DNA from: a virus
Length of the DNA: 51,876 nucleotides
Direction: 5' to 3' (one strand)
Virus record (IMG/VR): IMGVR_UViG_3300035698_034991
Location: 1 to 51,876 of that record
The position numbers and the translations under genes were made by a program. Positions 1,508 to 19,393 of the stretch are shown here, in pieces. The notes under the pieces were generated by a model, which was not told the origin of the DNA, searched no databases, and saw nothing but the letters and a program-made list of their open reading frames with translations. The first letter of the stretch is position 1. The number at the start of each line of letters is the position of its first letter.

Positions 1508-1816
1508 ATGTGGAAGCTGTATGTGGATGATGTTCGCAACCCGCCTGACACAACTTGGATAATTGCTCGAACCTCGTCGGAAGCAATTGTAATTTGTAAA
1601 AATCAAAAAACAATGCCAGGTATAATGAGCCTGGACCACGACCTTGGCGGCGAAGATACTATAATGACATTTTTGAAAGAGCTGTTCGAGTATTGGTGCG
1701 AACATTTTAACTCAAAAGAAACAATCCCGAAATACGTCGTACATAGCGCAAATCCAATTGGCAGTAAAAATGCAATTTCTTTTATGGAATCTTGGAAGAG
1801 ATCAATAGATTTGTAA
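1508..1816 (+). CDS. cREC-type receiver-like domain protein (predicted RNA cyclic-phosphate processing)
   Basis: This is a 102-aa single-domain protein. The ATG at 1508 lies 5 bp past the preceding stop; a TTG at 1493 is the alternative. Visible motifs are an acidic DD with RNPP at residues 7-13, SLDHDLGGEDT at 41-51 and VHSANPIG at 78-85. These match the divergent receiver domain that I recall as cREC_REC, 'cyclic-phosphate processing receiver domain', proposed from comparative genomics to act in RNA repair. The family assignment is firm from the motifs; the biochemical activity is a prediction from the literature. It fits the other RNA-repair genes at 5206, 7621, 9180 and 12266. Confidence 0.7.
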   Translation: MWKLYVDDVRNPPDTTWIIARTSSEAIVICKNQKTMPGIMSLDHDLGGEDTIMTFLKELFEYWCEHFNSKETIPKYVVHSANPIGSKNAISFMESWKRSIDL

Positions 1817-1861
1817 AAGTGGTTTATTTCTCCACCAAGACAGGTTAGTATATTAAAAGTA

Positions 1862-2005
1862 ATGAATCTAAAAATTGTTAAATCTAATATGAAAGTTGAA
1901 TCTTTACCGGGGTTGAAAAACTATCTGCTGAAAGTGTTTAGTTGGGTTATCTTAATTACTGTAATGGCACTTGGTTTGCTGACAATTTTTTTGCTTGCGG
2001 TCTAA
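1862..2005 (+). CDS. Small single-pass membrane protein
   Basis: This is a 47-aa protein starting with ATG at 1862. The N-terminal 25 residues are basic and polar. One hydrophobic helix follows at about residues 27-47 and runs to the C-terminus, giving an N-in small inner-membrane protein. Its stop at 2003-2005 sits 1 bp before the ATG of the exonuclease gene, which supports it being a real, coupled gene. No function can be assigned. Confidence 0.55.
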   Translation: MNLKIVKSNMKVESLPGLKNYLLKVFSWVILITVMALGLLTIFLLAV

Positions 2006-2006
2006 A

Positions 2007-2615
2007 ATGACAGATGTAAAAAAATACTTTGTATTCGATTGTGAAACAGGTGGTATAAAGTCAGATAATTCATTACTGACTTTATATGGGATGGTTTTAG
2101 ATTCAACATTTAAGCCGGTTGATACAATTGATTTGAAAATAAAACCTGCCGATGGCTTGTATAAGGTTGATCCACGAGCGCTGGTGGTTAACAATATAGA
2201 TCTAGTCGAACACGATAAGCATGCCATTCTCGAATCCGAGGCCGCAGTTATGTTCAACGATTTTTCTGTTAGGCATGCCTTCGGTAAAAAGATGGTGCCG
2301 ATAGGACATAATGTTGCTTTTGATATAAAATTTGTTAAAAAGCATCTTCTTAAAAAGTCTAACCGTCGGCTTGGCCATTGGGGTGCATATTACTCACATA
2401 GAGTTTTGGACACCGGCACGATCGCTCATTTTATGGCAATGACAGGGCATTTGCCCCCGGCTCTGAGTTGCAGTTTGGGTTCTCTTGCCGAGTATTTTAA
2501 ACTGGATTATTCAAAGGCACACAACGCTGATTTTGATGCCAAACTAACGTTAGAAGTTTTAAAAAAATTAATGAAATTGTCAATGACAAACGAGAATAGC
2601 AGCAATAATAAATAG
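2007..2615 (+). CDS. DnaQ-like 3'-5' exonuclease (DEDDh)
   Basis: This 202-aa protein is a complete DEDDh exonuclease domain. Exo I is FDCETGG with D11 and E13, Exo II is GHNVAFD with D106, and Exo III is H172 followed four residues later by D177. The fold matches the proofreading subunit epsilon and RNase T group, which remove nucleotides from 3' ends with two metal ions. The family A polymerase at 10103 has no exonuclease domain, so this protein could proofread for it in trans, or it could trim RNA 3' ends; neither is shown by the sequence. The ATG at 2007 is used; TTG at 1995 would overlap the small membrane gene. Confidence 0.85.
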   Translation: MTDVKKYFVFDCETGGIKSDNSLLTLYGMVLDSTFKPVDTIDLKIKPADGLYKVDPRALVVNNIDLVEHDKHAILESEAAVMFNDFSVRHAFGKKMVPIGHNVAFDIKFVKKHLLKKSNRRLGHWGAYYSHRVLDTGTIAHFMAMTGHLPPALSCSLGSLAEYFKLDYSKAHNADFDAKLTLEVLKKLMKLSMTNENSSNNK

Positions 2616-2626
2616 AAAGGGCGTAA

Positions 2627-3253
2627 ATGAGGTACATCGTAAATATAGATCCTAGAGTTAGACTAACCAAGCCAGAAGAATCACTGGATTTGCCAGTGTA
2701 TGTGGTTTTTAGCGGAAATTTTAATGAAGAAAGCGCTAAGAAATTTAGACACGAAATTGAAATTGCCGAGGCCCACGCAGTGAAGTCGGAGCAAAATATC
2801 ATTCCTGTTGTTATTGATTCATACGGCGGTTCTGTCTATTCTCTTTTGTCGATGATTGACACAATTGACAATTGCAAGATTCCCATTGCCACTATTGTTG
2901 AGAGTAAAGCCATGTCCTGCGGCGCCATTCTGTTTTCTTGTGGAGCAGAAGGTCATCGGTATGTCGCTCCCAATGCTACGGTTTTAATTCATGACGTATC
3001 TTCCTTTTCTCAGGGTAAGGAAGCTGACATAAAAGCAGATTCCGACGAGACTACAAGGCTAAATAGACTTATCTATAAGCGAATGGCAGAAAATTGTGGC
3101 AAGGAAAAGGATTATTTTTATGATAAAGTAACAGAGCGACGAGGAGCCGATTGGTACCTTACAGCCAAAGATTGCCTTAAGCACAACCTTGCAAACCATG
3201 CAAAAATTCCCTCGATCGATGTGGAAATCGGAGTTAAGTGGTCGTTCGAATAA
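2627..3253 (+). CDS. ClpP-like serine protease
   Basis: The 208-aa length is normal for ClpP. Visible landmarks are the SYGGSV oxyanion loop at 65-70, the nucleophile Ser97 in KAMSCG, and His122 in LIHDVSS. An Asp in the following RGADWYL region is the likely third member. Members of this family cut proteins inside a barrel fed by an ATPase, and phage homologues also act as prohead proteases. No capsid or ClpX-type gene is next to it here, so a role in remodelling host proteins is as likely as capsid maturation. The gene has a GAAAGGG ribosome-binding site. Confidence 0.85.
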   Translation: MRYIVNIDPRVRLTKPEESLDLPVYVVFSGNFNEESAKKFRHEIEIAEAHAVKSEQNIIPVVIDSYGGSVYSLLSMIDTIDNCKIPIATIVESKAMSCGAILFSCGAEGHRYVAPNATVLIHDVSSFSQGKEADIKADSDETTRLNRLIYKRMAENCGKEKDYFYDKVTERRGADWYLTAKDCLKHNLANHAKIPSIDVEIGVKWSFE

Positions 3254-3264
3254 AGTAATTTACG

Positions 3265-4017
3265 ATGAGAAAACGAATTATTTGCATTGGTGATATTCAT
3301 GGCATGCTTGAGGAATTCGTCCAACTGATAAACAAAACAAAATATATTCAAGGAGTTGATAGATGCGTGCTGTGCGGGGATCTTGTAGATCGAGGCCCCC
3401 AAACAGCCGAGGTGATTGAGTATGCGATTTCCATTGGCGCCGAGCTTGTCATTGGAAATCATGACGACAAGTACATTCAGTATAAAAAGCGTTATATAGA
3501 CAAAACAGCAGATATTCCTGTTGTCTTTTCCGATAGTCAGCAAAAAATTTGGGACTCATTAAATGATGAACATTTAAAATATTTAGAAAATGGCAAATAT
3601 TGCTTAGAGCTGCCAGAGTATAATGCAGTAGTCGTACATGCCGGAGTCATCCCTAGCAACAAAAAATTGACAGACAGGCCTCGAATAGAATATCTTCTTA
3701 CAAGGTATATTGATAAAAATACACACGAGCGGACCCGACTTCCTAATGATTTCTCAAAGCCGAAAAATTCTGTTCATTGGACCGACCTATATGAAGGTGT
3801 GATCGATATAGTTTATGGGCACGATGTCTATTCGTTTAATAAACCTGCAATAAGGATTTCGAAGCGTGGAGGCCGTACTATAGGAATTGACACAGGGGCG
3901 GTGTATGGCGGGAACTTAACTGCTTTAGTTTATAACAGTGATGGGACCGAGGAATTTATTCAAGTAAAATCCAGAGAAGCTTGGAAAGGCTTCGTTCTTA
4001 CAAACCCGTCGAGGTGA
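3265..4017 (+). CDS. PPP-family metallophosphatase (Ser/Thr phosphatase or Ap4A hydrolase-like)
   Basis: This 250-aa protein has the classic PPP signatures in order: GDIHG near residue 9, GDLVDRG near 39, GNHD near 66, and later VHAG and GHD. These form the two-metal centre of the lambda phosphatase and ApaH group. The substrate may be phosphoproteins, diadenosine tetraphosphate or 2',3'-cyclic phosphates, since PPP-type enzymes of the Pnkp group act on RNA ends. The sequence alone does not decide. Its place among RNA-repair genes makes the last option worth testing. Confidence 0.85.
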   Translation: MRKRIICIGDIHGMLEEFVQLINKTKYIQGVDRCVLCGDLVDRGPQTAEVIEYAISIGAELVIGNHDDKYIQYKKRYIDKTADIPVVFSDSQQKIWDSLNDEHLKYLENGKYCLELPEYNAVVVHAGVIPSNKKLTDRPRIEYLLTRYIDKNTHERTRLPNDFSKPKNSVHWTDLYEGVIDIVYGHDVYSFNKPAIRISKRGGRTIGIDTGAVYGGNLTALVYNSDGTEEFIQVKSREAWKGFVLTNPSR

Positions 4018-4032
4018 AACAAGTATTTATCT

Positions 4033-4296
4033 ATGGTTTTTTATTGTAAAGTGGGCGAACTTCTCAGGGTTGATCCTTTGGTAGAGGAGATTCATAAAGA
4101 ATATTTTAAGGTTGTAACAAAAATTCCATTCATCGAAGCTATTAAAAGTTCGAATAAAAAAACAATAGAAATACCTCAAAATTCCATTGTTATGGCCCTA
4201 GAAGCGTCCGTTCCGCCTTGGTATGCATCAGACCGAATTAGGTGCCTGTATAACGACACGGTTGTTTTTATTGGTAGAAAGTTTTTGAAAAAATAG
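4033..4296 (+). CDS. Small phage protein, unknown
   Basis: This is an 87-aa protein that I do not recognise. It looks beta-rich, with a KVGELLRV opening and a C-terminal RIRCLYNDTVVFIG segment, as expected for a small SH3-like barrel. It resembles the protein at 1173 in layout but not closely in sequence. It lies 15 bp after the phosphatase gene and 3 bp before the truncated macrodomain, within the same transcription unit. Confidence 0.65.
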   Translation: MVFYCKVGELLRVDPLVEEIHKEYFKVVTKIPFIEAIKSSNKKTIEIPQNSIVMALEASVPPWYASDRIRCLYNDTVVFIGRKFLKK

Positions 4297-4299
4297 AAA

Positions 4300-4407
4300 A
4301 TGGAAAAACTTAAAATTATAAAAGGCAATTTGTTTGAGGTCAGTGACAACCTATGCCACGGGGTGAATTGTTCAATACCTGTATTGCAAACTAACATAAT
4401 TGCATGA
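4300..4407 (+). pseudogene. Truncated macrodomain 5' fragment (35 codons)
   Basis: The ATG at 4300 opens 35 codons ending in TGA at 4405-4407. The first 24 residues align with the start of the intact macrodomain at 5206: KIIKG.LF, then D, HG and N are shared, and 16 bases (TTAAAATTATAAAAGG) are identical. After residue 24 the homology stops and an unrelated tail follows. The stop overlaps the ATG of the HNH gene. The simplest reading is a remnant of a macrodomain gene disrupted by the HNH insertion, with an intact copy just downstream. Confidence 0.7.
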
Positions 4408-5222
4408 TCCCAAACATTACACAACGAAAATGTCCTCAGTGTTTTGTTGATATTTTCTACAAGATAAAATACGAATGCATCCGTGCTGAAAAAAACAATA
4501 GCGTTTGTTCAAAATGCCGATATAAAAATCTAGGCCGACGCAATAAAGAAAAATCTAAAATATCTTACAAACAAAAACAAAAAATTATTAATTTGTTGAA
4601 AACGAATTTAACACATAGCGAAATAAAAGAAAAAATAGGTATAAACTGCTCTAACGCTCTGCTTACTAAATTTGCCAAAGAAAATAATCTGCAACGGAAA
4701 TTTCCAAAAAAACTTGAATTTGTTGATAGCAAACACGCAAAATGTAGCAAATGTTTTAACACTAAACCTTTATGTCGTTTTAAGGTAAATCGCTGCTATA
4801 ACAATGTAATGAGAGTGGGGTATTTCTCGTTTTGCAAGTCTTGTTATTACAAGCAAGAACATGAAGCTATTAATAATAATCCTGGTCGTCACTTTCGAGA
4901 GAAGATTAAAAATATCAAAAGGCGTTGTAAAAAAAATAATATTCCATTTAACTTGACAGCCAAGTTTTTACTAAATTTATATTATAAACAAAACGCATTG
5001 TGCTTTTATACGGACGAAAAGATGATTCTTAAGAAGGGGGTTGGCCTACACCGGCCCACTCTTTCGGTAGACCGAGTAATCCCCAAACAAGGATATGTTA
5101 AGTCAAACGTTGTTCTGTGTGCATATATTGTTAATAGAGCTAAGTTTGATCTTACGTTGGAAGAGATTAAAAAATGGATGCCGAACTGGTATGAAAGGAT
5201 AGAACATGACAGGTGTTGTTAA
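4404..5222 (+). CDS. HNH homing endonuclease
   Basis: This 272-aa protein begins with CPQC and CSKC zinc-like pairs, then a helix-turn-helix-like segment near residues 55-95. A second cysteine set (CSKC, CKSC) lies near 115-150. The C-terminal nuclease shows SVDRVIPKQGYVKSNVVL, the DR.....GY...N.. pattern of His-Asn-His homing enzymes. A conventional first His is replaced by the SVDR context, as in many phage relatives. It starts within the stop of the macrodomain fragment and ends 17 bp inside the intact macrodomain gene, so it is wedged between the two copies. Base composition is more AT-rich than its neighbours, consistent with transfer. Confidence 0.8.
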   Translation: MIPNITQRKCPQCFVDIFYKIKYECIRAEKNNSVCSKCRYKNLGRRNKEKSKISYKQKQKIINLLKTNLTHSEIKEKIGINCSNALLTKFAKENNLQRKFPKKLEFVDSKHAKCSKCFNTKPLCRFKVNRCYNNVMRVGYFSFCKSCYYKQEHEAINNNPGRHFREKIKNIKRRCKKNNIPFNLTAKFLLNLYYKQNALCFYTDEKMILKKGVGLHRPTLSVDRVIPKQGYVKSNVVLCAYIVNRAKFDLTLEEIKKWMPNWYERIEHDRCC

Positions 5223-5688
5223 AATTATAAAAGGAGACCTTTTTTCTTGTCAAGATCATATGGCCCATGGTATTAATGTTTGTGGGGTTTTTGGTAAAGG
5301 GGTGGCAGTAATTTTCAAGAAACATTTTCCAGAAATGTATCAAGCGTACCGAATAGACTGTCAAGAAAATAAAATTGTGCCTGGTGATTGTTGGGTCTGG
5401 AAAGAAAATGAAGGACTTGTTGTTGAAAATAACAATGTTTTAGAACGACAAGATCGAATGATTTTCAACCTAGCAGTTAAAGATCACTGGAAGTTCCCAG
5501 CAACTTATTCGGCTGTTGAACAAAGCATGAGAAGGTTGGTTTTTTATATGGTGAAAAATAAAATAAAATCTGTGTCAATGCCCTGGATAGGTTGCGGGCT
5601 TGGCGGACTAGAAAAAGACAAGGTTGCCGATGTAATTAAAGGCGCAATAAAAAATAAAAATGTTGCAATAAACATTTATGAATTATGA
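5206..5688 (+). CDS. Macrodomain protein (ADP-ribose-1''-phosphate phosphatase / TARG1-like)
   Basis: This 160-aa protein is a single macrodomain. GDLF at 10-13 and HGINVCGVFGKGVA at 21-34 form the ADP-ribose-binding loop, and PWIGCGLGGLEKDKV near 125-140 forms the second loop. This pattern is closest to Poa1p/TARG1/DarG-type domains, which hydrolyse ADP-ribose-1''-phosphate or remove ADP-ribose from macromolecules. ADP-ribose-1''-phosphate arises in tRNA splicing and repair when Tpt1 removes a 2'-phosphate, so an RNA-repair role is plausible. Reversal of host ADP-ribosylating toxins such as DarT is an alternative. The start overlaps the HNH gene by 17 bp. Confidence 0.85.
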   Translation: MTGVVKIIKGDLFSCQDHMAHGINVCGVFGKGVAVIFKKHFPEMYQAYRIDCQENKIVPGDCWVWKENEGLVVENNNVLERQDRMIFNLAVKDHWKFPATYSAVEQSMRRLVFYMVKNKIKSVSMPWIGCGLGGLEKDKVADVIKGAIKNKNVAINIYEL

Positions 5689-5702
5689 ATTCTGTATTTT
5701 GT

Positions 5703-5737
5703 GTTTAAAACTATATTTTTCTGGGTAAGGGTATAAT
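5703..5737 (+). promoter_or_regulatory. Possible promoter, non-standard spacing
   Basis: GTTTAAAA at 5703-5710 and TATAAT at 5732-5737 resemble the recurrent early promoter, but the start-to-start distance is 29 bp instead of 24. The -10 is a perfect consensus in the gap before the small membrane gene. Only the -10 element is convincing. Confidence 0.4.
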
Positions 5738-5767
5738 GAACATTAAATGTTTAGAAAGGTAAAAGAT

Positions 5768-5944
5768 ATGTTAGATAAGAAACTTTTAAAAAACACGGCG
5801 GCAGTATTTGTGGTGCTGTTGCTTCTTGCTGTAGTGTTGTATGGCGTTCCGTCTCTGCTGACAGTTGCAAAGCTGGCCGGTGTGTCGGTTCTTGCTACTT
5901 GGCTACTTCCCAAAGCGTACAATTTTGTCAAAAGCAAGCTATAA
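5768..5944 (+). CDS. Small membrane protein
   Basis: This is a 58-aa protein. The ATG at 5768 has AGAAAGG 8 bp upstream; an in-frame ATG at 5747 is possible but would lie almost at the predicted transcription start. A strongly hydrophobic segment spans about residues 10-45 and is long enough for one or two membrane helices with a Pro/Gly turn (YGVPS). The tail is basic. Small phage membrane proteins often act on lysis timing or superinfection, but nothing specific is visible. It forms a monocistronic unit with its own terminator. Confidence 0.6.
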   Translation: MLDKKLLKNTAAVFVVLLLLAVVLYGVPSLLTVAKLAGVSVLATWLLPKAYNFVKSKL

Positions 5945-5960
5945 AAGAAAATAAAGCCTG

Positions 5961-5999
5961 AGCAGGCTGCACACCGCAGCCTGCTTAGATTTTATTTTG
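5961..5999 (+). terminator. Rho-independent terminator
   Basis: AGCAGGCTGC at 5961-5970 and GCAGCCTGCT at 5976-5985 make a perfect 10-bp stem with loop ACACC. A T-rich tail (TTTTATTTT) follows from 5991. It ends the transcript of the small membrane gene. Confidence 0.9.
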
Positions 6000-6019
6000 A
6001 ATTTACATTTAGAGGCAAG

Positions 6020-6718
6020 ATGAGCAAAAGGCAAACTGGGTTATATAAAAATTTTTTTGACAGAACTACTGGGTTGCCCCTATTAACGCCCAGGGTGACT
6101 TTACCTCACTGGTTAGATAGTGACGTTTTTAAGCTTTGGCCACGGAAACTTAATGAAACGAAGAAACATTCGCATATCTGGGTAAGGTGGAACATTGACT
6201 TGACCTCCCGTCGTGCGAACCCACGTTCATCGTGGGACTTCGACGATCAGGTCGATATAATAAGACTATACTCGCTTGACAGCGGCAGCAATTGGCAAGA
6301 GGTCAATTTCACCTCTCTCTATAAACCAAAGAAGTATATTAATACAGAGCACAAGCTATTTGACGAAGCCGTTGAAAAGTCAAGGCAAACCATATATCGC
6401 CTAAGAGCAAAAGCTCGTCGAGAGGTCAAGAAGAAACAGGCAGAAGAATTAGGCGTGACCTTTAAAGAATATAGCAAAAGTCTTTCTGAAATTACTCGCC
6501 TGGCAGCTGAGAAGAAGAAGAAGTTAAAGAAAGTTGATGACACCAAACGAAGGATTCAGGTCGGCCCTGTCCTTGCTGAATTAAAAGAGGAGTTGGATTG
6601 CCTGATGATGGAGTTGCAAGACCCACATAGTAATTTAAGTTTAACACACATCGACAACAGTACAAGAAATCTTAAAAAAGCCATTCAAGTTTTATTGAAA
6701 TGGCGAGGCAACAAATGA
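6020..6718 (+). CDS. Unknown phage protein with basic coiled-coil middle
   Basis: This 232-aa protein is not recognised. The first 100 residues are rich in Trp and aromatic residues (for example IWVRWNID). Residues about 115-180 are Lys/Arg/Glu-rich and heptad-like, so a charged helical or coiled-coil region is likely. There is no signal peptide or membrane segment. AGAGGCAAG upstream of the ATG is the ribosome-binding site. The stop overlaps the start of the next gene by the ATGA arrangement, so the two are co-translated. Confidence 0.7.
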   Translation: MSKRQTGLYKNFFDRTTGLPLLTPRVTLPHWLDSDVFKLWPRKLNETKKHSHIWVRWNIDLTSRRANPRSSWDFDDQVDIIRLYSLDSGSNWQEVNFTSLYKPKKYINTEHKLFDEAVEKSRQTIYRLRAKARREVKKKQAEELGVTFKEYSKSLSEITRLAAEKKKKLKKVDDTKRRIQVGPVLAELKEELDCLMMELQDPHSNLSLTHIDNSTRNLKKAIQVLLKWRGNK

Positions 6719-7134
6719 GCAACGCTTTCGTTTCATTACTTTTAGAGCACCTTGGTAATATAGACCAGAGTAAGGAAACTTTTGTTTATATGAAAAGGGG
6801 AATTGCCCACCCGAGCCCCCTTATTCGTGAAGGTGCAATTTGTGGAATGGAATTAATGAATTTCCATGGAGCTGAGTGCTCCGAAGAAATGAAAGAAATT
6901 TTAATTAAAATCTCGAAAGAAGACCCTAGTAAAATAATTCGTGACTGTGCGCTTTCCATATACACAACTTTGTTCTGTGTTTTAGCGAGCGTCGCAACCA
7001 TTTTGGTGTTCCTTGGTCTTGTTGTGATCTATATTTTTGCACCGAAAGAGCAAAAATGGGAAAGAGTGGCAGAGTATTTTGATTTGATTGAAGATTCAAT
7101 GCGACGAGCCGGGCTATTTAGAAGGGTTGGCTGA
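6715..7134 (+). CDS. HEAT-like protein with one membrane segment
   Basis: This is a 139-aa protein. ATG 6715 overlaps the previous stop (ATGA); an in-frame ATG at 6700 is the alternative. Residues about 25-80 look like two HEAT-type helical repeats (HPSPLIREGAICGM, then DPSKIIRDCALS). A hydrophobic helix at about 88-112 is followed by a charged tail. It may present a small helical-repeat platform at the membrane; the partner is unknown. A 7-bp inverted repeat, 7126-7132 with 7136-7142, spans the stop codon. Confidence 0.6.
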   Translation: MSNAFVSLLLEHLGNIDQSKETFVYMKRGIAHPSPLIREGAICGMELMNFHGAECSEEMKEILIKISKEDPSKIIRDCALSIYTTLFCVLASVATILVFLGLVVIYIFAPKEQKWERVAEYFDLIEDSMRRAGLFRRVG

Positions 7135-7315
7135 CAGCCAACGAAGAAGGTTGCTACCCTCGGCTAATAAAAAATGAAAAAAGTATATCAAAAATATACT
7201 TATTCTTAGTCTAAATCAAAAACAGGATAAAGCTAAAATATGCTCGAAGCCAAACAAAGCCAACAAACCTATTCCAGCCTGTTTTGTGAATTTAATATAT
7301 TAAGGTAGTCAAACA
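7135..7315 (+). other. Non-coding gap with hairpins
   Basis: No convincing gene is seen in these 181 bases. AAGTATAT (7181-7188) and ATATACTT (7194-7201) form a perfect 8-bp inverted repeat. It precedes the small basic gene at 7316, which has AAGG 12 bp before its ATG. No 24-bp-spaced early promoter is present. Confidence 0.4.
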
Positions 7316-7573
7316 ATGAAAAAAATACAGAAGAAGAATAGAAATCAGCTTTTAGAGACTGTTCGTGACACAATCTACGAAGTTCTTGAAGAAGAACTTG
7401 ATAGAAAAATTACAGCAGTCAAGACTGGCAAAATGAAAAAAATTGCCGAGACTCGTGCCCGCAAAGTGCGAAACAACAAGGTGCTTAAATCTTTGCAGGA
7501 AAAAAAGCAAAAGATTAAGAAGTTATACCGAGATATTCTCGAAAAAGAAAACGAAGTAAAAAAATCAAAATAA
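7316..7573 (+). CDS. Small Lys-rich helical protein
   Basis: This 85-aa protein is extremely rich in Lys and Glu and almost entirely helical in appearance. Two heptad-like stretches lie at about 8-40 and 55-82. It has no cysteine and no membrane segment. A small nucleic-acid-binding or scaffold protein is a guess from charge alone. A strong terminator follows 9 bp after the stop, making this a single-gene unit. Confidence 0.6.
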   Translation: MKKIQKKNRNQLLETVRDTIYEVLEEELDRKITAVKTGKMKKIAETRARKVRNNKVLKSLQEKKQKIKKLYRDILEKENEVKKSK

Positions 7574-7581
7574 ACTTTAAT

Positions 7582-7604
7582 ACCCAGGGAAACCTGGGTT
7601 TTTT
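7582..7604 (+). terminator. Rho-independent terminator
   Basis: ACCCAGG at 7582-7588 and CCTGGGT at 7593-7599 pair perfectly around a GAAA tetraloop, followed by a run of T. It separates the Lys-rich gene from the Thg1-like gene, which starts 17 bp later. Confidence 0.92.
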
Positions 7605-7620
7605 ATGATATCATCGTTTA

Positions 7621-8352
7621 ATGGGAGATAAAACTTCACTTGGCGACCGTATGAAAAAACACGAAAGTGTTTATAAATTTTCTTTACCTCATCGCATGCC
7701 GATAGTTTGTCGGCTCGACGGAAAAGCTTTTCATACCTATACATCCGGGTGCAAGGAATTGTTTTGCAAAAGTTTGAACCAAGTAATGGATCAGACTGCA
7801 ATAAAACTATGCAAAGAAATCCAGGGCGCACAAATGGCGTATGTCCAGAGTGATGAAATTTCCATTTTGATTCACCCGTATAAAAAGTTTGCAAGTCAGG
7901 CCTGGTTTGATAATGAAGTTCAAAAAATATCAAGTGTAACAGCCGGAATTGCCTCTTCTACTTTTACAATGCTGTCGGATAAAATTTCTTTTAATGGTGG
8001 CCAGATCAAGCCTGCTGTTTTTGATTCGAGAGTTTTTGGCCTGCCCGAAAATGAAGTTTGTAATTATTTGGTTTGGAGGCAGAAAGATTGTGAAAGAAAC
8101 TCAATTTCTTCTGCTGCACAGTATCATTATTCAGCAAAAGAATTGCATGGAAAAAATTCGCAACTAAAAAAGGAAATGCTGCTTAGATGTAACTATGACT
8201 GGGAGATGTCAGAGCCAGGATTTAGATTTGGAAGAACTATTCTACCGACAGAAACATTTGAAGGCCGGAAAACTTGGGCCGTAAGCGAAGAGACATTGGT
8301 TTTTTCGGAGCAGCGGAAATTCGTTAATGATTTACTTCTATGTGAAGAATAA
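7621..8352 (+). CDS. thg1: Thg1-like protein (3'-5' RNA polymerase / tRNA-His guanylyltransferase family)
   Basis: The 243-aa protein is of normal Thg1/TLP length. The metal-binding motif RLDGKAFHTYT places Asp33, and YVQSDEISIL gives Asp78-Glu79; these correspond to the three catalytic carboxylates of human Thg1. Thg1 adds G-1 to tRNA-His. Bacterial and archaeal Thg1-like proteins add nucleotides in the 3'-5' direction to repair truncated tRNA 5' ends. The neighbouring nucleotidyltransferase and RNA ligase favour the repair role. No tRNA-His is seen in the window. TATGAT at 7604 lies only 17 bp before the ATG and there is no ribosome-binding site, so the mRNA may have a very short leader. 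Confidence 0.9.
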   Translation: MGDKTSLGDRMKKHESVYKFSLPHRMPIVCRLDGKAFHTYTSGCKELFCKSLNQVMDQTAIKLCKEIQGAQMAYVQSDEISILIHPYKKFASQAWFDNEVQKISSVTAGIASSTFTMLSDKISFNGGQIKPAVFDSRVFGLPENEVCNYLVWRQKDCERNSISSAAQYHYSAKELHGKNSQLKKEMLLRCNYDWEMSEPGFRFGRTILPTETFEGRKTWAVSEETLVFSEQRKFVNDLLLCEE

Positions 8353-8363
8353 AACAAGCAAAA

Positions 8364-9089
8364 CTATTTTTTGCCTATTGTCATAAGGTTGTCATAGCTG
8401 GTAATTTTTGCATCATAGAGCTTTTGAAGCGTGCCGTTTCTTCTGAGAATTTTGTATGTTAGGTTTTCGACGGAATACTCACCACCGGACTCTAGGCCAC
8501 AACTTCTCATTTTTTTCAATTTCTTACTTAGCAGCTCCGCTGATTCAATTGTCTTTTCAAACTTACCATCTTCAAGCCTTGCAACCACGAAGTCATCTAT
8601 TAGACGCATAATAACTTTTGATTTTTTAGTTATCGCTTCTTTGTTTATAAAAGGTTTCGATTTTTGTGGTTCAACAACCCATTCGTTGTTTGTGATGCTA
8701 TAAACGCCCGAGGAGTGATGTACTTCGCTGGCATCTTCCACATAAACTTCAACATCGTAATCATAAATTTTAATTTCGTGCAAGTTATTCCATAGGTTTT
8801 TTCGTGCGCTAAAATATGTTTCAACCAAATCGACATTTTCATCAACCAAAGAATAATCTATAACAAGATGTAGATCAATATCGCTATATTTAGACCAATT
8901 GTAATTGGCCAAGCTTCCAGTGAATTTAATATCTTCAAGCTCAGCCCAGGGAATATCCAGGTCTTTATAGAAGTCTTTGGCGATCTTAATGAGCTGTTTT
9001 CTAATTTTTGGATTTAGTTTTTTATCTTTTGTCCAGATATCCGAATTTAAACTATTCTTAACAGTAAGGCTTTTTAGATCAATGGACAT
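8364..9089 (-). CDS. Pol-beta-type nucleotidyltransferase
   Basis: This is a 241-aa protein. ATG 9089 begins MSIDLK; an in-frame upstream start at 9134 would add a hydrophobic 15-residue stretch and is less likely. GSL at residues 58-60 and D70-x-D72 (SDIDLHLVID) are the signature of the Pol-beta nucleotidyltransferase superfamily, which includes CCA-adding enzymes, kanamycin nucleotidyltransferases and MNTs. A third carboxylate is likely in the YDVEVYVED strand. It is the only minus-strand gene among these repair genes and lies between Thg1-like and RNA ligase genes. Nucleotide addition to RNA 3' ends is plausible but unproven; an antitoxin-like MNT role is the alternative. Confidence 0.8.
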   Translation of the reverse strand: MSIDLKSLTVKNSLNSDIWTKDKKLNPKIRKQLIKIAKDFYKDLDIPWAELEDIKFTGSLANYNWSKYSDIDLHLVIDYSLVDENVDLVETYFSARKNLWNNLHEIKIYDYDVEVYVEDASEVHHSSGVYSITNNEWVVEPQKSKPFINKEAITKKSKVIMRLIDDFVVARLEDGKFEKTIESAELLSKKLKKMRSCGLESGGEYSVENLTYKILRRNGTLQKLYDAKITSYDNLMTIGKK

Positions 9090-9179
9090 GATGATAAATA
9101 TTAATATGAAAGATAAAAAGTAGATTAAAATCATTTATTCTAAAATATGTTATATTCTCTCTAATGAAAGTAGTTTATT

Positions 9180-9824
9180 ATGGCTAGCATGGAAAGGAAA
9201 AAATATCCAAAGACGCCACATCTAGGCTGTAGCCCAGGAGCAAGCAGTAAAGCCACTGTGGTTGATAGTGATAGCTTTTTTCTAAACAAAGAAATTGTAA
9301 TAACCGAAAAAATGGATGGTGAATGCACGGGGCTTACCTCAAACATTTGCCATGCAAGGTCTATTGAAAGTGCGGATCATTCATCGAGGCACTGGGTCAA
9401 GGGCCTTCATTCACAAATTAAAAACGATATACCAGTAGGTTGGAAAATATTTGGAGAAAATATGTTTGCAAAGCACACGATTCAATATTGTAATTTAAAA
9501 TCTTATTTTTTAGCTTTTAATGTTTGGAACAACAATATGGAGTGCTTAGACTGGGAAACAACAAACGAATGGTTTGACAAACTTGGGTTATCTTCACCAA
9601 AATGTCTGTATTTGGGTGTATGTGAAAAAAATACCATTAAGCGTTTTTCTGACGATTTTAATAGTGACAAGAATAAGGCCGAAGGGTTTGTCGTGCGAAC
9701 GACAAGCTCTTTTAAGTACGATCGTTTCGGCACGCACGTAGCCAAGTGGGTCAAGAAGGATTTTATTCAAACAAAACATGACTGGAAACATGGTGAAGTA
9801 ACGAAGAATCGTATGGTAAGATAA
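9180..9824 (+). CDS. RNA ligase (covalent nucleotidyltransferase family)
   Basis: This 214-aa protein shows all main ligase motifs. Motif I is EKMDGE with the adenylated Lys44, motif III is IFGENM at 90-95, motif IV is EGFVVR at 168-173, and motif V is KWVKK at 189-193. The opening YPKTPHLGCSPG is typical of the bacterial/phage RNA ligase family (PF09414-like). There is no OB-fold or kinase domain. The enzyme would seal 3'-OH/5'-phosphate RNA ends using ATP. It lies between the nucleotidyltransferase and polymerase genes. ATG 9189 is an alternative start. No standard 24-bp promoter precedes it, although TATATT occurs at 9151. Confidence 0.88.
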   Translation: MASMERKKYPKTPHLGCSPGASSKATVVDSDSFFLNKEIVITEKMDGECTGLTSNICHARSIESADHSSRHWVKGLHSQIKNDIPVGWKIFGENMFAKHTIQYCNLKSYFLAFNVWNNNMECLDWETTNEWFDKLGLSSPKCLYLGVCEKNTIKRFSDDFNSDKNKAEGFVVRTTSSFKYDRFGTHVAKWVKKDFIQTKHDWKHGEVTKNRMVR

Positions 9825-9836
9825 GACTGTAGATAA

Positions 9837-10103
9837 ATGTCAGATTTCCCAAAAATGCCAAAAATTAAAAAAAAGGTCGTATATCAAAAAGTCCTTGGGC
9901 GGACTCTCCTTCGTGGCCAATGCTTTATTTCATTCGAGGAAAAGTCATCGCACGTCGAAGACCCGAATATATTTATTGTTTCCGGGACTGGCAAATGCTT
10001 TTCTTGCGTATCCCTAAAAACAGGCTGGCCAGGGTCTAAAAGACTTGCCGATGAGAACGTTTGCCCGGTAGATATTACTATTTGCTGGGAAGATGTAATT
10101 TAG
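9837..10103 (+). CDS. Unknown small protein upstream of DNA polymerase
   Basis: This 88-aa protein is not recognised. It looks beta-rich with a Lys-rich start and two Cys close together (CFSC). Its TAG stop shares a base with the GTG start of the polymerase gene (TAGTG), so translation is coupled and the product may be made in proportion to the polymerase. It lies 12 bp after the RNA ligase gene. Confidence 0.65.
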   Translation: MSDFPKMPKIKKKVVYQKVLGRTLLRGQCFISFEEKSSHVEDPNIFIVSGTGKCFSCVSLKTGWPGSKRLADENVCPVDITICWEDVI

Positions 10104-11383
10104 TGGAAATTTTACTACAACGCAGACTTCTAGGTATTAAAAAATTCGATTTGCTGATAAATAGCAATGGTGAGGTGCAGAAGCATTATTCCGATTTTGT
10201 CGGAAAGTCTAAACCGGAACGCCTGGTAATACCTAGTAAAGATTATTGGCAGATATGTAAGCTGTATGGTCTTCCGTATCGAACATTCCCACCGGAAAGA
10301 TTTAAAAAAGCTTATGAGCTTATCCAAAATCACGAGGCGGAAAAGCCCGGACCTTTGAAAAAGGATTTCCCATGGCAAAAAGTCATACCGAAAAAAATAT
10401 ACAACGATGAGCTTGAGAAAATAACAAAATTGGTATTTGAAGACTGTAAAAAATTATCATTCGAATATTATTTTAATTTTTTCAAATCGTATGAGGTGCT
10501 TTTCAAAAACCTGAATCGTGCAGTAATTGACATGGACCTATATCAGCAATTTACCAACGATGGAAACGAAGCATCAAGTAAGTCAATCTTAAAAACGTTT
10601 GAGCCTGGGATAAAACATCTAAATAAACATTATTGCAAAAAGATAAAATATGATCGGACATCTTCACTTACCGGAAGGCTTGGTATTCAGGAGGGTCCGG
10701 CCATTCTTCATCTTCGAAAAGATTATAGAAAGGTTGTTAAATCTCTCTGGGGTGACAATGGCACCGTTTATTATTTGGACTTTAAATCTCTTGAACCTAG
10801 AATTTTACTTGCGATGAAAGAAAATGCAAGTGAAATCCCCAAAGACATTTATCTTGCCTCGGCAAAGGATTTAAATCTTGATGCTAAAAAACATCGTTCT
10901 GCCATTAAAACTTCTATTATTTCTATGATGTATGGAGCAACCAACGATGTCCTGATTAGAAACCTAAAAAAAGAAATTGATTACCCAGAGGAGTTTGTCC
11001 ATTCTATAAAAGAACATTTCGGTGTCGAATCTTTAAAAGAAAGCCTAAAAAAAGAATATGAGGAAAACGACGGATTAATGATAAGAAATTTATATGGCCG
11101 ACCCATCTTTGCGTCAGCCGCAGCGCCCTATGTCCTCGTTAACTACTTTATTCAGTCCACCGCTGTTGATATTGCCTTACAGGGATTTACAAATATTGTT
11201 AAAAAACTAAAACAGTCAAACGGTTTAGATTTGATCCGCCCATTATTTGTACTGCATGATGCTTTGATTTTAGATGTTCACAATAGCGTTGAACACGTCT
11301 TGCCAAAAATAGCAAATTTTGGAAGCAAAAACATTCCCAAGCTTGAAAATGTAAATTTTTGGATCGACGTTGAAAGGCTATAA
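10103..11383 (+). CDS. Small family A DNA polymerase (palm/fingers only)
   Basis: This is a 426-aa protein. The GTG at 10103 overlaps the previous stop and is preferred to an earlier TTG. Motif A is YLDFKSLEPRILL near residue 226, motif B is KHRSAIKTSIISMMYGA near 262-280, and motif C is LHDALIL near 384. TGRLG upstream of motif A matches the conserved TGR of Pol I. Both catalytic Asp residues are present, but motif C has HDA in place of HDE. No 3'-5' or 5'-3' exonuclease domain exists and the N-terminal 180 residues are unfamiliar. It may be a replicative or gap-filling enzyme, with the DEDDh protein at 2007 a possible separate proofreader. Confidence 0.85.
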   Translation: MEILLQRRLLGIKKFDLLINSNGEVQKHYSDFVGKSKPERLVIPSKDYWQICKLYGLPYRTFPPERFKKAYELIQNHEAEKPGPLKKDFPWQKVIPKKIYNDELEKITKLVFEDCKKLSFEYYFNFFKSYEVLFKNLNRAVIDMDLYQQFTNDGNEASSKSILKTFEPGIKHLNKHYCKKIKYDRTSSLTGRLGIQEGPAILHLRKDYRKVVKSLWGDNGTVYYLDFKSLEPRILLAMKENASEIPKDIYLASAKDLNLDAKKHRSAIKTSIISMMYGATNDVLIRNLKKEIDYPEEFVHSIKEHFGVESLKESLKKEYEENDGLMIRNLYGRPIFASAAAPYVLVNYFIQSTAVDIALQGFTNIVKKLKQSNGLDLIRPLFVLHDALILDVHNSVEHVLPKIANFGSKNIPKLENVNFWIDVERL

Positions 11384-11441
11384 GTTTTTTAAACAATTTC
11401 TTTGATGCAGGATAAACTTGTAAGTAACGAGGTTTAATATT

Positions 11442-11735
11442 ATGACTGACAAAGATAAACAAGGTACTAGCAACCTTAAATTAAGTGACGAATCGATTGC
11501 ATTGGTTCGTGAATTGGTGCAACTTTCAATTCTAACGGGAACTAACCTGGTGGATCATATGAGAGCAGTTCAATTGAATGTGTCCGACGGTTTTGTATAT
11601 CCAACTGAGGATTATGTTCTTGCATACAATGCTCAAATTGAAGAGCTATCCAAAAAGGCCGAGGAGATGCAGGCTAAAGCGCAGGAGGCCGAAGCAAGCG
11701 ACCCGGCGCCCGAACTTGCCGAAGCAAAGAACTAA
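11442..11735 (+). CDS. Small acidic helical protein
   Basis: This 97-aa protein is not recognised. Residues 12-60 look alpha-helical and mixed. The C-terminal third is a Glu/Ala-rich heptad stretch (about 65-95) ending in an acidic low-complexity tail. The ATG is preceded by AACGAGGTTTAAT. Its stop overlaps the stop of the convergent gene by 4 bp. Confidence 0.6.
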   Translation: MTDKDKQGTSNLKLSDESIALVRELVQLSILTGTNLVDHMRAVQLNVSDGFVYPTEDYVLAYNAQIEELSKKAEEMQAKAQEAEASDPAPELAEAKN

Positions 11736-12190
11736 ATTAGTTTGGCAGTTAGGTTGGGTCTGTAGATATAACCAAGCCCTTTGGTTGTAACTACTTCCGC
11801 TGCGTTCATTTCTTGGCGTTCTTTCACGATGTCATAGACCGCATAATTGCCCGTGGCGATCACAATTTCTCCAAATGGAACCTTTTTTATGTAGGTTCCA
11901 AATTTGGACTTGTCCTTTTTAAAAAACATAAATGGACAAAGTTGCCCCCATACTCCATCACGAGTGGAAAAATGATAGACACCACCAATACTATTATGAT
12001 CAGGGTTTTCTTCTCTGGTGATCTTGAGAAGGTTTCCGGCTAATTTGTCACTATGAACAATCGTCCACGATGGGCTATTGTGTTTTTTACTATTGTTAAA
12101 TGAATGGTGTCCGTGCTTTCTTCTCCATTTAGCAAGAGCGCCAGCAACACCAGGTGCAAGGGGTGTATTTTTTTTACTTTTATGCGCCAT
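11732..12190 (-). CDS. Unknown protein, minus-strand singleton
   Basis: This 152-aa protein is not recognised. The first 45 residues are Lys/His/Ser-rich and probably flexible. The middle (GGVYHFSTRDGVWGQLCPF) and the stretch FGEIVIATGNYAVYDIV look like a small beta domain. It is convergent with the preceding gene and divergent from the 2H phosphoesterase gene, whose promoter lies in the gap between them. Confidence 0.6.
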   Translation of the reverse strand: MAHKSKKNTPLAPGVAGALAKWRRKHGHHSFNNSKKHNSPSWTIVHSDKLAGNLLKITREENPDHNSIGGVYHFSTRDGVWGQLCPFMFFKKDKSKFGTYIKKVPFGEIVIATGNYAVYDIVKERQEMNAAEVVTTKGLGYIYRPNLTAKLI

Positions 12191-12229
12191 ACCATATTAT
12201 TATAGAGAATTAATATAAAGTTTTAAACA

Positions 12230-12259
12230 GTTTATAGACTAGGTGTTTTTTGATATTCT
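12230..12259 (+). promoter_or_regulatory. Early-type promoter of the 2H phosphoesterase gene
   Basis: GTTTATAG at 12230-12237 and TATTCT at 12254-12259 are 24 bp apart start-to-start, as in the recurrent motif. Only 6 bp separate the -10 from the ATG at 12266, so transcription should start at or next to the start codon, giving a leaderless message. Confidence 0.65.
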
Positions 12260-12265
12260 TTTTGT

Positions 12266-12658
12266 ATGTATACCGCTGTAGTTCTGGACGAAGAAAGCCG
12301 TGAAAAGATAATTAAGGTCTTTTCACCTATCGTGCCTGATGATTGGGAAATCATTGCCCATCACATGACTATTAATATGGGTAAGATTGAAAAGGGTCCA
12401 ATTGCCAATAGAACCGAGATGCCCAGAAAATACCTGGGAGCTACGGCATTAATGACCGTTGTGGGCCTTGCACAAAATGATAAAGTTATTGCTGTTGAGG
12501 TTGAATCCTCGATACCAAGCAAGAATTTAAATCCACATATCACCATTGCAGTAAATCGTTCTGCCGGAGGCAAACCTTCGATGAGTAACAAGCTTAAAAC
12601 TTTTACAACAATAAAAGACATTTTTATTGTTTTTGGTACGATTCAGGAGATCGGATAA
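12266..12658 (+). CDS. 2H phosphoesterase, tRNA-ligase CPD-like
   Basis: This 130-aa protein has two HxT motifs, H33-M-T35 in HHMTI and H91-I-T93 in NPHITIAV, which define the 2H phosphoesterase fold. Surrounding residues (AVVLDEES at the start, AVEVES before the second motif, GGKPSMSN after it) resemble the cyclic phosphodiesterase domain of fungal tRNA ligase Trl1. That domain opens 2',3'-cyclic phosphates to 2'-phosphates before sealing. This is the healing step that would precede the RNA ligase at 9180. The gene has its own promoter with almost no leader. Confidence in the fold is high, in the CPD subtype moderate. Confidence 0.82.
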   Translation: MYTAVVLDEESREKIIKVFSPIVPDDWEIIAHHMTINMGKIEKGPIANRTEMPRKYLGATALMTVVGLAQNDKVIAVEVESSIPSKNLNPHITIAVNRSAGGKPSMSNKLKTFTTIKDIFIVFGTIQEIG

Positions 12659-13240: not shown

Positions 13241-13316
13241 GCTCTCGACGCCGACAGGAACGGCAGCAGAACTTCTAATTCTGACTTTGTGGGTTCGAGT
13301 CCTACCGAGAGCGCCA
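13241..13316 (+). tRNA. tRNA-Arg (anticodon UCU) with encoded CCA
   Basis: This is a 76-nt cloverleaf. The acceptor GCTCTCG pairs with CGAGAGC, and discriminator G is followed by encoded CCA at 13314-13316. The D-stem is GCCG/CGGC, the anticodon stem CAGAA/TTCTG with loop CTTCTAA (anticodon TCT, U33, A37), and the T-arm GTGGG-TTCGAGT-CCTAC. It reads AGA, a codon common in AT-rich phage genes. Position 8 is A where U is usual, and C-1 could pair with G73, extending the acceptor stem. An HNH gene starts 7 bp downstream. Confidence 0.9.
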
Positions 13317-13322
13317 GATAAA

Positions 13323-17533: not shown

Positions 17534-19393
17534 TTATTTGTCTTGTTGGCTTAAATGTTTTATGTATAATCTCTGCCCTGCATCATAGATCTTATACCAA
17601 CCAAGTTCAGCTGCATGCTCGCTCATAGACAATTTTCTTTCATCCATGTTTGCTCGACATCTTAGTCTGTTGTAAGTCTCAAATCCGTCGGACCATTTCC
17701 ACCCAAGAGTCTCCCTGGTTTTGACAAATTCTTTATTGAGGAGGTGATTGCCTGTACCATATCGAAGGTCCACCCAATTATGAATTTCTGTGATGCTTGA
17801 ATCCAGGTGATTCTTTTCAAGATGAGATAGTAGTTTGCTAAACCCTCCTACTACACTTGTGTCCGTTTTCGAACAAAATCTATCGATCTTGCAAATATTT
17901 TTCTTTTGCTTGAAAGAAAGTAGGGATACAAGTTCGTCATTGTAAAACAGCCCAATATGTCTAGTATTTATCGAACCCATAAGATGATTACGGCTAAGAA
18001 ATTCCGAAGCTACTAAATTCTTGACGGTTCGTACCGTGCATTTGCGAGCATAAATTTTATTTACCGTGCGACCGTCGGCATTGCCAACAATGGATTTAAC
18101 AATATGTGGTCTGCTACGAATTTCATCACCTCTAATCTGCATAATGCGCAAGTTAGCCTCTTCGAACTCTTTTCTAAGGCCGAAGTGATACCACCTATCT
18201 TTTTGTATGTTTTCGCCATGCCAATACAACCCATCAACATTAAGGTATGTGGTATTATTAAGTTTAAAATCGGGTCGACGAAGAGATTTAATCTGTTTCG
18301 GAGATTTGTTATAGTGTTTAATATCAAGAAGCTGCTCGGCAAGAGTTTCTAAGCTGGATTTGCTTTCTTTATGGTTATCAACAAACTTAAGCAGGCTTTC
18401 TTCGGAAAAAAACGTTCCGCCAATGCTGTGACAATAGCGTGTCACTGTTATGATCGAGGGCCTTGGCCTTGGCTGTTCCCGTAACCATTTTGCAACGCTA
18501 CCCCCTGTTTCTTTGACCTTGTATTGAATTAGCAATTCGTGCGGTTGCTCTACTCCATAATTTTGCTTAAGAGTTTTTTTAATTTTTTCTTTTATTACCG
18601 CTGAGCCAAGCGGGGTTGTTGCACCGAAGCGTTCTAGGCAAGTAGCCTCTCTTTTTTCTTTAATTTTCCTGGCTTCAATTGGGTTGCTTAACTTTTCTAG
18701 GTGTGATTTGCTAATTTTATCTTTTACGCTTTGGAGTTGCGACACATGCTCAACTCCGTAACGCTCCAGGAGGGTGGATTTAGTTTTCGCCTGCACTTCC
18801 TTAGAATTCCAAGTATAATCAACTCCGTATTTTTCTTTTACCGATTTTTTTAATTTATCTTGAACGGACTTATTCTGCATTGGGTTTTTCACACCAAACC
18901 TAGCTAAGTTTGATTGCACTATCTTCTTTCGTACTTCTGCGCTTTGAAAAGAGCACTCAACTCCGTATCGATCGATATTTGTTTTTTTAGTTTTGTTCTT
19001 TATTATTTTGCTTTTTGAGGGGTTGTCCACTCCGTAGTTTTTTAAACACCCGGTCCTTCTTTTTTGTTTTATTTTTTCTGCTTTTTCCGGGTCGGCAAAG
19101 TTTCTCTTGTGCGCTTTGGAAATTTTTTCTCTAACTGATTTAAGTTGCGACTGATGCTCAACTCCGTATTTTTTTAATAAAGTCTCTTTTCGCCTTTGGG
19201 CCGCTCTGTTTGGATGAGCAGATTTTTCAATATACACTTTATTTGGAACAGACCAGAAATGGTCTTTTTCCACAAGGTCGTAGAATTTTGATTTTTTTTT
19301 CCAACCACCCCAACCATCTTTACATAGCTGTATGTCCTCACGGCCTTGTTCAACAAAACGCCTCAAAGCAATATCAAAAGTTATTTTTTTCAT
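17534..19393 (-). CDS. Repeat-rich homing endonuclease (VSR-like nuclease) with C-terminal GNAT-like domain
   Basis: This is a 619-aa protein. Residues about 65-265 hold seven or more copies of a roughly 30-residue unit built on YGV..(P/S)Q....V..KI, typical of DNA-binding repeats in phage homing enzymes. Residues about 335-440 resemble an EDxHD/VSR-like nuclease (RRPDFKLNNTTYLNVDGLYWHGE, then LRIMQIRGDEI). The last 170 residues (NHLMGS..HIGLFYNDELVSLLSF, GGFSKLL) look like an acetyltransferase-type fold; the role is unknown. It is a paralogue of the protein at 22400. It sits between two virion genes, has a -10-like TATGAT upstream, and is probably selfish. Confidence 0.75.
   Translation of the reverse strand: MKKITFDIALRRFVEQGREDIQLCKDGWGGWKKKSKFYDLVEKDHFWSVPNKVYIEKSAHPNRAAQRRKETLLKKYGVEHQSQLKSVREKISKAHKRNFADPEKAEKIKQKRRTGCLKNYGVDNPSKSKIIKNKTKKTNIDRYGVECSFQSAEVRKKIVQSNLARFGVKNPMQNKSVQDKLKKSVKEKYGVDYTWNSKEVQAKTKSTLLERYGVEHVSQLQSVKDKISKSHLEKLSNPIEARKIKEKREATCLERFGATTPLGSAVIKEKIKKTLKQNYGVEQPHELLIQYKVKETGGSVAKWLREQPRPRPSIITVTRYCHSIGGTFFSEESLLKFVDNHKESKSSLETLAEQLLDIKHYNKSPKQIKSLRRPDFKLNNTTYLNVDGLYWHGENIQKDRWYHFGLRKEFEEANLRIMQIRGDEIRSRPHIVKSIVGNADGRTVNKIYARKCTVRTVKNLVASEFLSRNHLMGSINTRHIGLFYNDELVSLLSFKQKKNICKIDRFCSKTDTSVVGGFSKLLSHLEKNHLDSSITEIHNWVDLRYGTGNHLLNKEFVKTRETLGWKWSDGFETYNRLRCRANMDERKLSMSEHAAELGWYKIYDAGQRLYIKHLSQQDK

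Follow-up and report, generated by a model that had tools for sequence, protein, structure and literature searches.

In phage T4, tRNA repair is the work of Pnkp and Rnl1, the ligase sealing the cleaved tRNA. The region considered here, positions 1508 to 12658 of the virus record IMGVR_UViG_3300035698_034991 (a linear record of 51,876 bases with 38.7% G+C, analysed at its full length and called the window below), likewise encodes a ligase of its own; this ligase matches PF09414 only, Pnkp was not found, and a Thg1-like protein, a nucleotidyltransferase (NT) and a 2H phosphoesterase are added. We read the region as holding two unlinked counter-defence activities, a tRNA end-repair kit and a DarG-type macrodomain, with a probability of about 0.53, on the basis of the protein families and their motifs, the predicted folds of the 2H protein and the NT, and a gene order observed in one relative.

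RNA repair in jumbo phages has been described in print as a complement of ligases, kinases, 2H proteins, cREC, KptA, macrodomains, RlaP, CCA enzyme, Thg1 and PTH2 (Iyer et al. 2021, PMC7824862, section 3.4.9), for which a part in mending tRNA and in counter-defence is proposed, with Thg1 occurring sporadically in a few of these phages (PMC7824862). The window resembles this complement in its ATP-dependent RNA ligase, 2H protein, cREC, macrodomain, Pol-beta nucleotidyltransferase and Thg1, and both an ATP-dependent RNA ligase and a cyclic-phosphate opener (2H or cREC) were found in it. RlaP is the partner nucleotidyltransferase of the described complement, whose ligase generally comes with a polynucleotide kinase, whereas the window has an NT of phrog_36119, and a kinase was not found in this fragment or in four related records. 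A preliminary description of the region had seen in it a solution larger than and different from that of T4; a solution larger than that of T4 is already on record for jumbo phages, and the system is real but of known kind, plus a probable anti-DarT enzyme.

Thg1 with kinase, macrodomain and ligase was proposed in bacteria in 2010 (PMC2904730), and Thg1 lies near an RNA ligase and a macrodomain both there and in the window, but a persistent kinase partner belongs to the bacterial neighbourhoods, while none was found in the window, whose macrodomain is of DarG type. Neighbourhoods of sirtuin, cREC and ligase are also on record (PMC9503650). The order Thg1-NT-ligase was not met in the literature covered, though no search named that order and most subscription journals lay outside it.

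Enzymes of the region and their predicted activities

The six proteins that the preliminary description had joined in one RNA-repair set (cREC, macrodomain, Thg1, NT, ligase and 2H) are all present with motifs intact, and profile searches with hidden Markov models (Pfam and PHROG), together with fold evidence, placed each in the family claimed; the NT and the 2H protein fall under the Pfam cut-off and are backed by motif and fold. The PPP phosphatase and the DEDDh exonuclease, which had been offered as possible members, are there as well. The features are as follows.

1508..1816, plus strand: cREC (cyclic-phosphate processing receiver-like); PF20274 E 3.5e-19; phrog_1479; motifs DDVR, LDHD, HSANP
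2010..2615, plus strand: DEDDh exonuclease; PF00929 1.1e-8; phrog_192 'DNA polymerase exonuclease subunit' 2.6e-22
3265..4017, plus strand: PPP-type metallophosphatase (NinI / ApaH-like); PF00149 1.5e-13; phrog_246 4.6e-29
5206..5688, plus strand: macrodomain, DarG/TARG1 type; PF01661 6e-11; PADLOC DarG 1.6e-35; 5m31 8.5e-20
7621..8352, plus strand: Thg1-like protein (TLP); PF04446 7.5e-26; phrog_4717 4.1e-72; 4kgk E 5.1e-51
8364..9089, minus strand: putative Pol-beta-fold nucleotidyltransferase (NT); phrog_36119 2e-42; alignment of 37; model pLDDT 90
9180..9824, plus strand: Rnl2-type RNA ligase; PF09414 2.1e-27; phrog_24030 3.1e-58; motifs EKMDGE, HARS, FGEN, EGFVVR, AKWVK
10091..11383, plus strand: short family-A DNA polymerase (PolA); PF00476 1.7e-9; relatives in G023 and G021; within the block, not RNA repair
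12266..12658, plus strand: 2H phosphoesterase, predicted CNPase / fungal tRNA-ligase CPD fold; HMT (33), HIT (91); model; alignment

The Thg1-like protein is closest to TLPs, the match to the B. thuringiensis TLP (4kgk, E 5.1e-51) being far better than that to 3otb (3.3e-10), and the metal carboxylates D33, D78 and E79 are kept. For this nearest relative of solved structure, the activity on record is the repair of tRNA 5' ends. Lysine K43 of the B. thuringiensis TLP is not kept; the aligned residue in the window protein is E46, with a lysine one place earlier. According to PMC3701042, activation with GTP by the TLP is independent of this lysine, and TLPs can activate tRNA that is 5'-monophosphorylated and mend 5' ends that have been truncated. 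The gene product is a predicted 3'-5' RNA polymerase of the TLP type. The sole tRNA found in the window is a tRNA-Arg(TCT) at 13241-13316, and there is no tRNA-His there for Thg1 to mature.

For the NT the best Pfam match is weak (0.0012, under the cut-off), but an alignment of 37 sequences shows no variation at G58, S59, D70 and D72 within its GS...DID motif. Among the weak Foldseek matches of its model (E 0.003 or worse) are Pol-beta-type nucleotidyltransferases, and the fold match to 2rff (Z 6.8, root-mean-square deviation 4.0, 102 residues) is weak taken alone. With both the GS...DxD motif and the fold present, the protein is placed in the Pol-beta superfamily of nucleotidyltransferases, the resemblance of the model by itself being general and weak. 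RlaP was considered as an identity and rejected, no family of that name being among the Pfam matches (E up to 1); the PHROG family matched was phrog_36119 instead.

The motif residues of the RNA ligase are invariant in seven sequences. With E values up to 1 allowed, PF09414 is the one Pfam family that it matches, and no profile of the T4 Rnl1 family is among its matches. A single-sequence search of solved structures gave no relative of the ligase, and a profile search gave a weak DNA-ligase match.

A 2'-phosphate is left when enzymes of the CNPase or CPD type open a 2',3'-cyclic phosphate. The 2H protein of the window, a stand-alone protein of 130 amino acids, has the 2H fold and two HxT motifs in common with CNPase and the fungal tRNA ligase CPD, at 12-17% identity. 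Its Pfam match is under the cut-off (E 0.0078), and by profile it was the weakest of the calls in the preliminary description. The model (pLDDT 89) resembles CNPase over residues 1-130 (Z 12.8, root-mean-square deviation 3.7 over 128 residues) and residues 646-831 of the fungal RNA kinase entry 6u05 (Z 10.7), a domain that we take to be the CPD of fungal tRNA ligase; lower values were obtained for a Burkholderia phage phosphodiesterase (Z 7.9), Acb1 (Z 7.8) and LigT (6.5). Two HxT/S motifs were found together with a 2H fold of the CNPase/CPD type, and the identity was thereby confirmed by predicted fold, with the second motif histidine replaced by tyrosine in one (L195) of the 14 aligned sequences. 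Matches of the 2H profile to interferon gamma and Myb among solved sequences were taken as spurious.

The best matches of the macrodomain among solved chains are the macrodomain of T. aquaticus DarG (5m31), a further macrodomain protein (7omu), TARG1 and the macrodomain of M. tuberculosis DarG (5m3i), and its catalytic lysine K92 together with N24 and W95 correspond to K80, N22 and W83 of DarG. The PADLOC DarG model is matched at positions 2-144 of 329 only, so that the C-terminal DarT-binding domain is absent from this protein of 160 amino acids. KptA/Tpt1 is the known source of ADP-ribose phosphate, and it was not found in the window or in four related records. With a domain of DarG type and no KptA/Tpt1 found, the role of ADP-ribose-1''-phosphatase proposed in the preliminary description was rejected, and the macrodomain is better read as taking ADP-ribose off DNA. 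It is of the same class as the macrodomain of the DarG antitoxin, in which N22A and K80A are strongly inhibitory and W83A has little or no effect (PMC5179494); unlike that antitoxin it stands alone. The phage anti-DarT protein AdfB works through binding of DarT (PMC11481870). A stand-alone DarG-type macrodomain with its catalytic residues kept is a candidate, and by sequence a probable, anti-DarT enzyme. In PMC9503650 macromolecular targets of phage macrodomains are called conceivable, with small ADP-ribose derivatives favoured. Relatives of this macrodomain are present in 424 phage records, among them 125 Escherichia and 74 Salmonella phages by name.

The DEDDh protein probably proofreads for the short PolA and is not counted as RNA repair; the suggestion that it joins the repair set was dropped on its phrog_192 match. 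The nearest solved relatives of the PPP protein are the putative Ap4A hydrolase 2qjc (2.3e-20) and 1g5b (5.7e-8), and a role as an end phosphatase is possible. Both cREC and PPP may serve either kit, nothing in the region tying them to one.

Taken together, the 2H enzyme would open the 2',3'-cyclic phosphate, the Thg1-like polymerase would regrow missing 5' nucleotides against the template strand, the NT may restore nucleotides lost from the 3' side, and sealing of a 5'-phosphate to a 3'-OH would fall to the Rnl2-type ligase. Separately, the DarG-type macrodomain would strip ADP-ribose from DNA and counter DarT-like toxins. We infer all substrates in this scheme, as well as the joint action of the enzymes and the counter-defence role.

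Gene order in related phages

Three relatives were reached via a primase scan. One (G021, 206,528 bases) holds relatives of window genes, the first being PolA and the last the DnaJ gene at 47002, and the other two (G022, 48,480 bases, and G023, 64,585 bases) have large parts in common with the window. Because G021 is of this length, the window is probably a fragment of an uncultured phage of at least 200 kb, the related G023 not being shown complete, and the region probably a part of a large phage in which accessory and replication genes are mixed.

Order and strand of Thg1 (plus), NT (minus), ligase (plus), PolA, g11442 and 2H are kept in one relative, G023, where the series reads g6020, g7316, a Thg1 remnant, the NT on the minus strand, an open reading frame (ORF) of 362 amino acids, ligase, PolA, g11442, a minus-strand ORF and 2H. 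Identity to the window proteins is 68% for the NT, 49% for PolA, 49% for 2H and 42% for the ligase, and the 2H gene has the same place in G021 and G023. Relatives of cREC, PPP, macrodomain, DEDDh and Clp were not found in G021-G023; G021 starts at PolA, with the Thg1-NT-ligase part and everything upstream outside its contig. Of the proposed single RNA-repair set, the block of Thg1, NT, ligase and 2H has support; for one set of all six enzymes the support is partial. The 362-residue ORF directly before the ligase of G023 (L077:5100-6188) shows a GS...DID motif by eye and has no Pfam match; it is possibly a second nucleotidyltransferase, and a search with it gave no counterpart at the other loci covered. 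A tyrosyl-tRNA synthetase-like gene (L077:11184-12176, PF00579 3.4e-48) lies 1.6 kb after the 2H gene.

Similar neighbourhoods recur elsewhere. Within 7.5 kb of one locus (L273:7520-14998) are an NT on the minus strand, a ligase on the plus strand, PTH2 and PNKP (kinase plus HAD phosphatase), which is a fuller RNA-repair neighbourhood than that of the window. In the 484-kb record of the huge phage LR756508 (L067:8001-10956) ligase, cREC and PNKP form one same-strand run within 3 kb, and in LR756500 the ligase adjoins an HD-kinase protein. An intact Thg1 lies 2.2 kb before the ligase in L002 and is followed after the ligase by an ADP-ribosylglycohydrolase (PF03747), all in 6 kb; this enzyme and an ORF on the minus strand, in which a HAD-like DxD motif was recognised by eye (L002:7239-8661), are perhaps stand-ins for macrodomain and phosphatase. 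In L009 macrodomain and Thg1 are 1.6 kb apart, and there a likely NAD-salvage run seen by eye (L009:5079-10816; nicotinamidase-, PRPP synthetase-, NAMPT- and NadE-like ORFs) and the macrodomain are followed by Thg1.

In favour of the repair kit, 74 of the 80 loci of bacterial ligases of this family have a kinase domain near the ligase, nearly always in the ORF beside it, and PNKP is nearby in two other phages (L273 and LR756508). All five of the bacterial kinase ORFs that were checked proved by Pfam to be HD plus kinase (AAA_33). The bacterial ligases are 39-50% identical to that of the window and belong to the same family, but such a kinase was not found in the window or its relatives. The remaining counts at the bacterial loci were one for Thg1 and none for cREC, macrodomain, NT and 2H. 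All neighbourhood counts were made with custom profiles run over the fetched flanks of the best loci of each family, the cREC profile coming from three sequences and the macrodomain profile from one, so that relatives will be missed; the kinase profile was built from three in-frame kinase domains and, as a control, found none in 33 shorter primase loci.

Weight of the evidence and competing explanations

A number of observations weigh against a working tRNA end-repair kit. With a cut-off of E 0.001, none of kinase (PF13671), KptA/Tpt1 (PF01885) and RtcB (PF01139) was matched in the window or in four related records (G001 and G021-G023, of 31 to 206 kb, none shown complete), in agreement with the preliminary description as regards 5'-OH kinase and Tpt1. 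Since the window is a linear partial record, the absence of the kinase holds for the fragment and not for the whole phage; the enzyme may be encoded on the missing part, borrowed, or unneeded where breaks carry a 5'-phosphate. The 80 best ligase loci on virus contigs have a kinase domain nearby in just 5 cases, and Thg1 in 6, cREC in 2, macrodomain in 4, NT in 2 and 2H in 4. Around the 80 best NT loci the ligase family of the window was not found in 79, the sole exception being G023, which also supplies the one Thg1; cREC was counted there once, 2H four times, kinase once and macrodomain not at all. The excess of Thg1 at ligase loci over NT loci (6/80 vs 1/80, G023 being in both) has a one-sided p of 0.029 without G023 and 0.059 after a duplicate was merged. 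Flanks of 20 Thg1 loci held one ligase, one macrodomain and three kinases (two from one contig), and those of 13 2H loci one kinase and no Thg1, cREC, macrodomain, NT or ligase. The Thg1 gene itself is truncated in relatives: the frame in G023 has 90 amino acids and is alike only over residues 1-75, the N-terminal part, and in L224 and L225, which are 99.9% alike across 2 kb and were taken as a single phage, nothing but a C-terminal piece of 78 amino acids is left directly before the ligase, so that Thg1 is dispensable in these phages. Thg1 beside this ligase family thus recurs but gets lost.

Searches of whole records covered 48 of 71 listed records (the 23 omitted are all contigs below 40 kb; L002 and L024 were kept though below 40 kb), and at E 0.001 found cREC in 12, Thg1 in 24, the PF09414 ligase in 31 (30 over the cut-off), phrog_36119 in 8 and macrodomain in 9 (7 over the cut-off). 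Thirteen records chosen by Thg1 had ligase in 3, cREC in 2, NT in 2 and macrodomain in 1; seven virus contigs chosen by ligase had Thg1 in 1, cREC in 1 and neither NT nor macrodomain; and 16 chosen by primase had Thg1 in 2, ligase in 9 (8 over the cut-off), cREC in 1, NT in 1 and macrodomain in 3 (1 over the cut-off). A general bond between Thg1 and ligase in phages was rejected on these numbers, which also count against the kit (ligase over the cut-off in 3/13 Thg1-chosen vs 8/16 primase-chosen records, two-sided p 0.25). The 12 phage records of 317-735 kb, picked by ligase (ten), 2H (one) and NT (one), contain ligase in 12, Thg1 in 8, cREC in 8, NT in 5 and macrodomain in 5. Thg1, ligase and cREC occur together in six records (G012, G019, W04, W06, W09, W10), all of at least 157 kb, with NT in two and with macrodomain in two; no record has all five families. 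Genome size may explain much of this. Ten named jumbo phages gave Thg1 in 4, ligase in 5 and cREC in 4, the ligase being in 4/4 with Thg1 and 1/6 without (one-sided p 0.024). These were hand-picked, phage G and XacN1 being already known Thg1 matches and Caulobacter phages (Caulobacter being the host of one more) standing in the same earlier tally; minus phage G and XacN1 the count is 2/2 vs 1/6 (p about 0.11).

That accessory enzymes with separate jobs came together by chance within 11 kb of a replication region, and share no pathway, is rather unlikely in our estimation. It would account for the record counts, with no record holding all five families and with cREC (66 phage records), macrodomain (424 records) and NT (261 stretches of virus contigs) spread far beyond the set, the other families there being counted only in part; among the repair candidates stand genes for PolA, Clp protease, HNH and DEDDh, the NT is on the opposite strand, and Thg1 decays in relatives. 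It would not account for Thg1, NT, ligase and 2H keeping order and strand in G023 at 42 to 68% identity of NT, ligase and 2H, nor for the NT near a ligase again in L273, with PTH2 and PNKP, and the ligase with cREC and PNKP in LR756508. The same two NT loci speak against the NT being an AMP-transferring enzyme (MNT- or DrrA-like) that blocks a host protein, e.g. a HEPN ribonuclease, and merely neighbours the ligase. This explanation, compatible with the others, is unlikely; in line with it are the wide spread of the NT apart from the ligase family of the window and some matches, by profile to SidM_N/DrrA and by fold to MNT antitoxins and aminoglycoside nucleotidyltransferases, but every one of the matches is weak, with Foldseek E values of 0.003 or worse and, over the catalytic part, Z of 6.8 or less.

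The fold of the 2H protein is common to the anti-CBASS nuclease Acb1 and the Burkholderia phage phosphodiesterase, phage cREC domains often occur as fusions with Nudix (PMC9503650), and Ap4A hydrolases are among the nearest solved relatives of PPP. Counter-signalling would fit these points: defence signals made of cyclic nucleotides or cyclic ADP-ribose would be degraded by 2H and cREC, those made of ADP-ribose or dinucleotides would be the targets of macrodomain and PPP, and RNA would be left to ligase and Thg1 alone. It is nevertheless quite unlikely, as the 2H model is nearer CNPase and 6u05 than Acb1 and as the 2H gene of G023 is likewise found near the ligase. We regard as very unlikely the model of the preliminary description, which puts all six enzymes, PPP and DEDDh into a single RNA-repair pathway able to clear ADP-ribose-1''-phosphate as well. 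All of its families are present in the window, ligases, 2H, cREC, macrodomain, RlaP and Thg1 have been proposed in print for jumbo-phage RNA repair, macrodomain and Thg1 are close together in L009, and macrodomain and ligase have been reported to share operons with Thg1 in bacteria (PMC2904730), but this is opposed by the DarG type of the macrodomain, the lack of KptA/Tpt1 in the window and four related records, the polymerase exonuclease family of DEDDh and the failure to find cREC, PPP and macrodomain in the relatives. Highly doubtful, too, is a two-ended rebuilding of tRNA without kinase, where Thg1 would regrow the 5' side (3'-to-5'), the phrog_36119 NT the 3' side, and the ligase would seal 5'-phosphate/3'-OH breaks. 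If true, a phage could undo defences that cut and also nibble tRNA, and the ligase would be freed from the kinase that is nearly always beside its bacterial relatives. The reading as two unlinked activities, tRNA end repair by the syntenic enzymes and a DarG-type macrodomain, is the one that we prefer.

Surrounding genes and biological meaning

Among the other genes of the window, PolA had no match among 50,697 phage records, and scans of virus contigs with SbcC and Clp did not find relatives. Clp protease relatives lie in the flanks of 7 of the 80 NT loci, and those of the full DnaJ-like gene (47002-48081) in 6 of the 80. Two long homing/HNH-endonuclease-like genes are on opposite strands (17534-19393 and 22400-24139), with shorter ones at 4404 and, by eye only, at 13317. 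Five long minus-strand ORFs of 402 to 1416 amino acids between 15075 and 32764 have relatives in G021-G023 and gave no family match above the cut-off, the ORF of 1416 amino acids being searched in Pfam only.

If the syntenic core of Thg1, NT, ligase and 2H works as a unit, an NT family other than RlaP, encoded by 261 stretches of virus contigs, would be a possible partner in RNA repair, and there would be a testable role for phage Thg1.

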